Source: Halichondria panicea (Eukaryota; Porifera; Demospongiae; Suberitida; Halichondriidae). From it: 64,000 bases of DNA. The DNA lies in the NCBI RefSeq assembly GCF_963675165.1, contig NC_087385.1:2666501-2730500 (forward strand). The letters are read 5' to 3'. Positions 46,101 through 47,282 of the stretch are shown here, piece by piece. The notes beneath the pieces were generated by a model. It saw only the letters and a program-made list of their open reading frames with translations, ran no database searches and was not told the DNA's origin. Within the stretch, counting starts at the first letter, position 1; each line of letters opens with the position of its first letter. The translations under genes were made by a program, and so were the position numbers.

Positions 46101-47282
46101 TTCCTAAATTTGAAATTTCAATTGTTTAGAGAATTTCAATTTGAAATACTTACCTCACTGTAGGGCCTATCATTGATTTCCCCTTGTGCATTGGTTTCAA
46201 AACGCTGCTTACACTGCATTGAATTGTACAAAATGTATCTGCTTACAGAACTCAGATACTATATGTACTTAGTAATTACCTAACTCACCACGTCATTGAT
46301 TTCCCCTTGTGCATTGGTTTCAAAACGCTGCTTACACTGCATTGAATTGTACAAAATGTATCTGCTTACAGAACTCAGATACTATATGTACTTAGTAATT
46401 ACCTAACTCACCACGTCATTGATTTCCCCTTGTGCATTGGTTTCAAAACGCTGCTTACACTGCATTGAATTGTACAAAATGTATCTGCTTTCTGATGCTT
46501 ACAGAACTCAGATACTGTATGTACTTAGTAATTACCTAACTCACCACGTCTCCGCAGAATAAGTTTTGGTCGTCAACAATGAACGGTTTTCCCACTAGAT
46601 TTCTCCCTAGAAAAACAGAGAAGGTAGTTTAAATACCATATATAGTAGTATTAAAACGATGCTTATGAATAATTTTAATGAATGGATTTTAGAGCCTTTG
46701 TAGCTCACGGGGGTTAAACAATGAATTTCAGTATGCCATGCAGAGTACCGCTATAGAGTCAGAGTGTCGTATCTTGTTGAGATATACAAACAGATAAATC
46801 ACAAAATTGGTGACAACTAATACGGAGAACCCGAATTCAGGGAACTGATTTACAGAATGTGCAAAGTGCAATTAGAAAATTCACGGTTATTCTATCATAG
46901 CAGACTGTGCATTTCGTGATATAGAGTTTTAATCATGTTTTTCATACTCACCACAAAAGTTACAGACTAAACATCTAGCGTGGAATGTTTTCCCTTCATA
47001 TTTATAGGGAATGTTGTGAGCAATGCTTTTCCCACACTTCAAACAGTAGGGGTCATGCTCATCTTCATCTGAGGGAATACAACAATGTGTATGAAATACA
47101 GTAGACATGAAAGAATTTCATGGAAGGAACATTAGATATTGAGAAGGAACATTACGATTGATTGAGAGGTAGCTAAAAGGTTGTGCAGTGTGCTAGAGGC
47201 AAACCCTCTGCATGAAACTCTGCATGTTACCTTGTTTGGGTTCTTGCAAAACATGAGTTTCTGTAACTTTGTCCTGAGCCAT
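43189..47282 (-). CDS. Protein with LIM domains at both ends
   Basis: Probably a cytoskeletal or junctional adaptor. Exons in transcript order: 47282-47231, 47068-46952, 46606-46545, 46459-46412, 46336-46289, 46213-46154, 46103-43769, 43723-43616, 43396-43323, 43269-43189 (2985 nt, 994 aa). LIM 1, residues about 24-80: CLKC, HARC, LVCNFC and FCGDV, with the final Cys contributed by the next exon (CKQRF). The middle of about 800 aa is one long exon, Ser/Pro-rich with proline-rich and basic motifs (PPPIPLKRG, RRPKKNVRW), and looks disordered. LIM 2, near the C-terminus: CVVC, HSKCFYCSKC and YCWDC. LIM domains bind two zinc ions and mediate protein contacts. The N-terminal LIM is followed by three near-identical 16-residue exons from a recent duplication. 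I do not know a vertebrate protein with exactly this layout. Confidence 0.85.
46154..46544 (-). repeat. Tandem 123-bp duplication spanning an exon (three exon copies)
   Basis: The exons at 46459-46412, 46336-46289 and 46213-46154 all encode CKQRFETNAQGEIND, with intervening introns nearly identical apart from a roughly 11-bp difference in the first one. The first two end GACGTG/GTGAGTTAGG, exactly like the end of the preceding exon at 46545. The last ends with its own sequence (DRPYSE) and a GTAAGT donor. The repeat period between the first two copies is 123 bp. Confidence 0.93.

Follow-up and report, generated by a model that had tools for sequence, protein, structure and literature searches.

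An intron-spanning internal tandem duplication with two predicted chimeric exons in a LIM-domain gene of the sponge Halichondria panicea

How does a compact gene come to carry three short, consecutive and nearly identical coding segments, and what would they do to its protein? The question is raised by a LIM-domain gene of the sponge Halichondria panicea, located on the reverse strand of the window, i.e. the whole stretch of 64,000 nucleotides analysed here (assembly GCF_963675165.1, contig NC_087385.1, positions 2,666,501 to 2,730,500). An initial annotation of this DNA had proposed that a segment reaching from the end of one exon through an intron into the next exon was duplicated twice, very recently, and that two new in-frame exons resulted. 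The present analysis re-examines the array, the splice sites, the predicted protein and the precedents for such an event.

The gene model was built from the reading frame, from splice motifs and from homology to LIM domains, and its parts are collected in Table 1. The limits 46154 and 46606 given by the initial annotation mark where exon B ends and exon A starts. The 3′ end of exon A reads ...TTCTGCGGAGACGTG/GTGAGTTAGG. In the spliced protein, the Pfam LIM domain (PF00412) is found with 43.1 bits when a valine encoded at the exon A border is left out and with 42.4 bits when it is included (cut-off 22.9). The 789-aa frame that holds the next, long exon has no Pfam match at E 0.001, and downstream of it lies a partial LIM match of 24.8 bits against the cut-off of 22.9 (Pfam, translated by eye). 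When the sponge's own genome was searched with the spliced protein for related sequences (E up to 10), eight matches came back: six are pieces of the same gene, and two, on contig 16, are weak matches to LIM (E 1.5 and 2.2). Elsewhere in the window, a frame at 3507-4331 encodes a NACHT domain (E 9.1e-25), is followed by further open frames and resembles an innate-immune NLR-like gene, and a frame at 54656-55963 combines VIT and VWA domains (Pfam VIT E 2.2e-29).

Table 1. Parts of the LIM gene model and of its array, in window positions; a slash marks a possible exon–intron border
Feature	Position	Strand	Basis
Exon 1 of the LIM gene, ATG, 52 nt	47231..47282	-	gene model, open frame
Exon 2, encodes the first part of the LIM domain; 3′ border TGTG/GTGAGT	46952..47068	-	
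Exon A, 62 nt, end of LIM ...LFCGD(V), tandem donor GAC/GTG/GTGAGT	46545..46606	-	
Intron copy I, 85 nt; set apart from copies II and III by 10 extra nt and one substitution	46460..46544	-	
Chimeric exon X1, 48 nt (45 with the upstream donor), CKQRFETNAQGEIND(V)	46412..46459	-	
Intron copy II, 75 nt	46337..46411	-	
Chimeric exon X2, 48 nt, identical to X1	46289..46336	-	
Intron copy III, 75 nt, same sequence as copy II	46214..46288	-	
Exon B, 60 nt, source of the 5′ portions of X1 and X2, CKQRFETNAQGEINDRPYSE, donor GAG/GTAAGT	46154..46213	-	
Stop-to-stop frame of 789 aa that contains the next, long exon	43734..46103	-	

The array itself is a plain observation. Tandem Repeats Finder reports three copies of a 123-nt unit at 46170-46550 (score 665, 95% matches), arranged head-to-tail over 381 bp, and a chance origin of such an array is ruled out; a DNA search of the sponge's own genome with this stretch finds it in one place only. 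Unit copies II and III show no difference over 123 nt, while copies I and II are told apart by a single C/T substitution and an indel of 10 nt. The triplication put forward by the initial annotation is thus borne out by both the program and the copy comparison. The comparison also agrees with the exon borders in giving X1 and X2 the acceptor of exon B and the donor of exon A, as had been claimed: each joins the first 42-44 nt of exon B (60 nt long) to the last 4-6 nt of exon A. The range arises where exon B sequence meets exon A sequence within the chimeric exon; a GA, already described as a microhomology, is present there and can be assigned to either side. Taking exon status from the gene model, the event is an internal tandem duplication across an intron, with both breakpoints in exons and the whole intron inside. 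Neither X1 nor X2 contains a full copy of any one exon, which sets the case apart from whole-exon tandem duplication.

As regards the reading frame, the A/B junction is in phase 0 (given exons 1 and 2), and spliced models with 0, 1 or 2 extra exons all stay open, in line with the earlier statement that the exons are in frame; stops appear when all three A-B introns are retained, the sole retention case tested. How much this says was gauged by counting through the possible duplications that start in exon A and end in exon B: 1240/3720 were in frame and 1207/3720 (32%) both in frame and open. An overlap of at least 2 nt is expected at 17% of the breakpoints counted, in a trimmed set that leaves out breakpoints near exon ends. 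Since chance alone would give about 0.32 and 0.17, the kept frame and the GA overlap are uninformative, and an argument from them for selection or for a special mechanism was rejected. A purely non-coding minisatellite is likewise disfavoured, because the array sits between LIM exons and its copies keep phase.

The reading preferred here, to which we give a probability of roughly 0.7, is an internal tandem duplication within the LIM gene, repeated once, with both chimeric exons likely included in the transcript and the linker lengthened. The copied segment comprised the last 4-6 nt of exon A, the whole short intron and exon B up to base 42-44. The simplest history, and the one by which the copy comparison upholds the claim of two rounds, would be one duplication, slight divergence and then a second duplication of the copy. 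Each extra unit thereby brings a donor, an intron, an acceptor and 45-48 coding nt, with sites identical to those of the parent. Because the introns are short (75-85 nt), pairing of the nearest donor and acceptor is expected; such preferential pairing in short introns is described in the available part of PMC9225289. By default, then, transcripts would carry both chimeric exons and the protein would gain 30-32 residues, as repeats of CKQRFETNAQGEIND(V) after the LIM fold. The predicted product is a LIM protein in which a 15/16-residue element occurs three times ahead of the long exon. Exon A is followed by identical residues regardless of the copy spliced to it, and the extra exons should therefore leave the LIM fold intact; the only new join in the product is ...IND(V)/CKQ.... 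The likely fate would be that the linker separating the LIM domain from the long middle part of the protein, a part taken here as disordered, becomes longer with nearly neutral effect.

Exons of 45-48 nt can be skipped, and a different outcome would be the alternative inclusion of 0, 1 or 2 extra exons, yielding LIM proteins of varied linker length. The frame is indeed kept in all three combinations, but the splice-site pairs are identical in all copies, so that nothing obvious favours skipping, and the nearest sites tend to pair in short introns (PMC9225289, in the part available); alternative inclusion is accordingly judged clearly improbable.

A finer question concerns where exactly exon A ends. 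The tandem donor GTGGTGAGT, a GYNGYN motif, ends exon A, X1 and X2, and the same 9-mer also ends exon 2. With the downstream donor (GTG/GTGAGT, common to A, X1 and X2) an extra valine is encoded, the last zinc knuckle becomes C-x3-C and each extra exon adds a step of 16 aa; with the upstream donor (GAC/GTGGTG) the knuckle is C-x2-C, the step 15 aa and the extra exon 45 nt. The initial annotation had written the extra exon as CKQRFETNAQGEIND, which corresponds to 15 aa or 45 nt, and at the same time spoken of 16-residue steps; each figure is correct for one of the two GTGGTGAGT donors. Its statement that the first cysteine of these exons probably completes the zinc site stands in part. Among solved structures FHL2 matches best (E 4.5e-8); its LLCTDC lies opposite LFCGDC of the sponge protein, and therefore the cysteine at the start of exon B, X1 and X2 occupies the last ligand position; yet the donor that had been marked, CGTG/GTGAGT, inserts a valine after the aspartate and gives C-x3-C.

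Splicing of exon A at the upstream donor, with a C-x2-C knuckle and 45-nt (15-aa) extra exons, is a variant of the preferred reading rather than a denial of it. In its favour, FHL LIM domains align with C-x2-C at the last ligand pair, and LIM domains elsewhere in the genome do much the same. A six-frame genome search gave 33 LIM matches, 30 of which were taken as loci, the present gene, whose LIM is split by introns, being absent from them; the last pair was legible in 21 of these loci, the other nine being presumably interrupted by an intron, and 20 of the 21, read by eye, have C-x2-[CHD]. The remaining locus (L024) has a LIM with C-x3-H as its last pair, a knuckle one residue longer elsewhere in the same genome. 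The Pfam scores for the two forms also point to the upstream donor, with a gap that is negligible for choosing between them. Against it, U1 pairing is weak, with -3.4 kcal/mol as compared with -8.7 kcal/mol for the downstream donor (the exon B donor reaches -10.2 kcal/mol). Moreover, at the copy of GTGGTGAGT that ends exon 2, where both donors keep the frame, only the downstream one preserves a Cys ligand (read by hand), and among human GTNGTN donors both forms were confirmed in 81/4,152 cases, according to the accessible portion of PMC1779574. The evidence from sequence thus leans towards the downstream donor GTG/GTGAGT and use of the upstream one appears doubtful, although a C-x3-C knuckle under the strong donor makes the splice, or the gene model, slightly uneasy.

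Whether the array is peculiar to this gene was addressed by a Tandem Repeats Finder survey of 24 sequences (the window, 19 loci of LIM genes and four 10-kb stretches chosen arbitrarily), amounting to 163,778 bases with about 0.7 kb counted twice where L006 and L015 overlap; 19/24 being LIM-gene loci, the sample is not random. Sixteen arrays of period at least 30 were found, with rows merged by eye. Three of the 15 arrays other than the present one (L008, L042 and L002) were inspected, having been picked for high identity, and two of the three (L008 and L042) cross an apparent acceptor into an exon. In another LIM gene (L008, 1060-1536, G000:C6, LIM exon near 1501), an apparent acceptor with about 45 nt of exon occurs six times; the repeat includes the CA-rich intron end and five of the six copies lie upstream of the real exon. 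At L042 (8070-8232), a 70-nt repeat in 2.3 copies comprises an apparent acceptor and the first 15 nt of an exon that matches PRPF8 (E 1.7e-23). No exon was assigned in L002. Tandem arrays across splice sites therefore recur in this genome. Two further repeats were noted in the window: about 18 copies of a 56-nt unit with 95% matches at 25767-26773, between frames that, by a motor motif, resemble pieces of a putative kinesin-like, coiled-coil gene, and a compound tandem repeat with units of 93, 101 and 194 nt at 15312-15899, just downstream of a 1273-aa open frame that has no Pfam match at E 0.001.

The age and the stability of the array bear on two more explanations. The initial annotation had called the event very young. 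'Young' is a fair description, but 'very' is not established: by the rule of three, 0/123 differences between copies II and III allow a divergence of up to about 2.4%, and exchange between copies could also keep the units alike. Dating the array from its copies was given up, there being too few differences (one substitution and one indel between I and II, none between II and III). The array might also be a minisatellite that is coding, bears introns, differs in copy number from one individual or haplotype to another and has no regulated role. That copies II and III do not differ is what a recently changed array would show, and tandem arrays are common, with the 16 of the survey (this one included) in 163,778 bases; however, a single assembled genome copy is at hand, three units fit a fixed state equally well and the survey sample was not random. 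This explanation, which is compatible with the preferred reading, is given a little less than an even chance. The identity of copies II and III might also suggest an assembly artefact, with the extra copies absent from the animal. Yet the chimeric junction could not exist unless the segment had truly been duplicated at least once, and copy I can be told from II and III, which makes an artefact highly improbable; besides, the array spans just 381 bp, and the assembly, with 131 Mb in 39 contigs and no N in 99,778 bases of loci, looks contiguous. A search for stray DNA of the host or a close relative in contigs of prokaryote genomes gave 13 pattern matches, none of them confirmed.

Events of this class have been seen in other organisms. 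The duplications in the Arabidopsis gene TOUCH3 were reportedly described by Knowles and McLysaght in 2006. In that gene, two internal duplications copied a whole intron with both of its exon flanks, as stated in the part of PMC4974935 available, a source that also separates the multiplication of existing introns from intron creation. The sponge gene resembles it in having two tandem internal duplications of an existing intron with exon sequence on either side, and differs in gene, kingdom and protein. Human FLT3-ITDs that contain intron 14 likewise consist of a duplicated intron plus exon sequence (PMC8727286, in part); unlike the sponge duplication, which sits in an assembled genome with two extra copies, they belong to leukaemia cells, and all but 2 of the 908 reported there involve exon 14. 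Tandem exon duplications (PMC9013439; the 'partial' and 'inter-boundary' types of Exonize, PMC12343006, both from partial texts) share with the present case a duplicated coding exon, here three in a row, whereas the breakpoints in the LIM gene lie inside exons and would give chimeric exons, not whole-exon copies. In 15 Drosophila lines, 1901 duplications were counted, 624 of which take in exonic sequence without covering an entire gene (Emerson et al., as excerpted in PMC2891723). The tandem duplications altering intron–exon structure in that excerpt resemble the LIM gene in that signals are inherited from the parent; in contrast to them, the LIM gene multiplies an existing intron and appears to recruit no new splice site. 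Finally, a one-valine difference at a tandem donor distinguishes RBM10 isoforms (PMC4336493, in the part available). As with such GYNGYN donors (PMC1779574, PMC4336493), GTGGTGAGT in phase 0 would add or omit one Val; the difference is that the copies place the donor choice at three junctions here, where dual use is hypothetical.

On this comparison, the LIM-gene array is best classed as a new case of a known event, the intron-spanning internal tandem duplication, and the chimeric exons follow from that class of mutation. The phrase 'exon birth caught in progress', used in the initial annotation, is fair for an event of a known class, since arrays across splice sites recur in the genome and precedents are in print.

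A bolder combination may be considered, in which germline unequal exchange changes the copy number of intron-bearing coding units while the tandem donor toggles Val, a choice that has one of its junctions inside the LIM zinc knuckle. We regard this as a long shot, less probable than alternative inclusion; if it were true, individuals as well as transcripts would differ from one another in linker length and in knuckle spacing. Taken alone, the array is one more case and brings no new principle. It is a small, clean example of how a compact gene can gain whole exons in one mutational step, with all splice signals inherited, and, if copy number varies among individuals, it would offer a natural system for measuring how often such units are gained, lost and spliced in.
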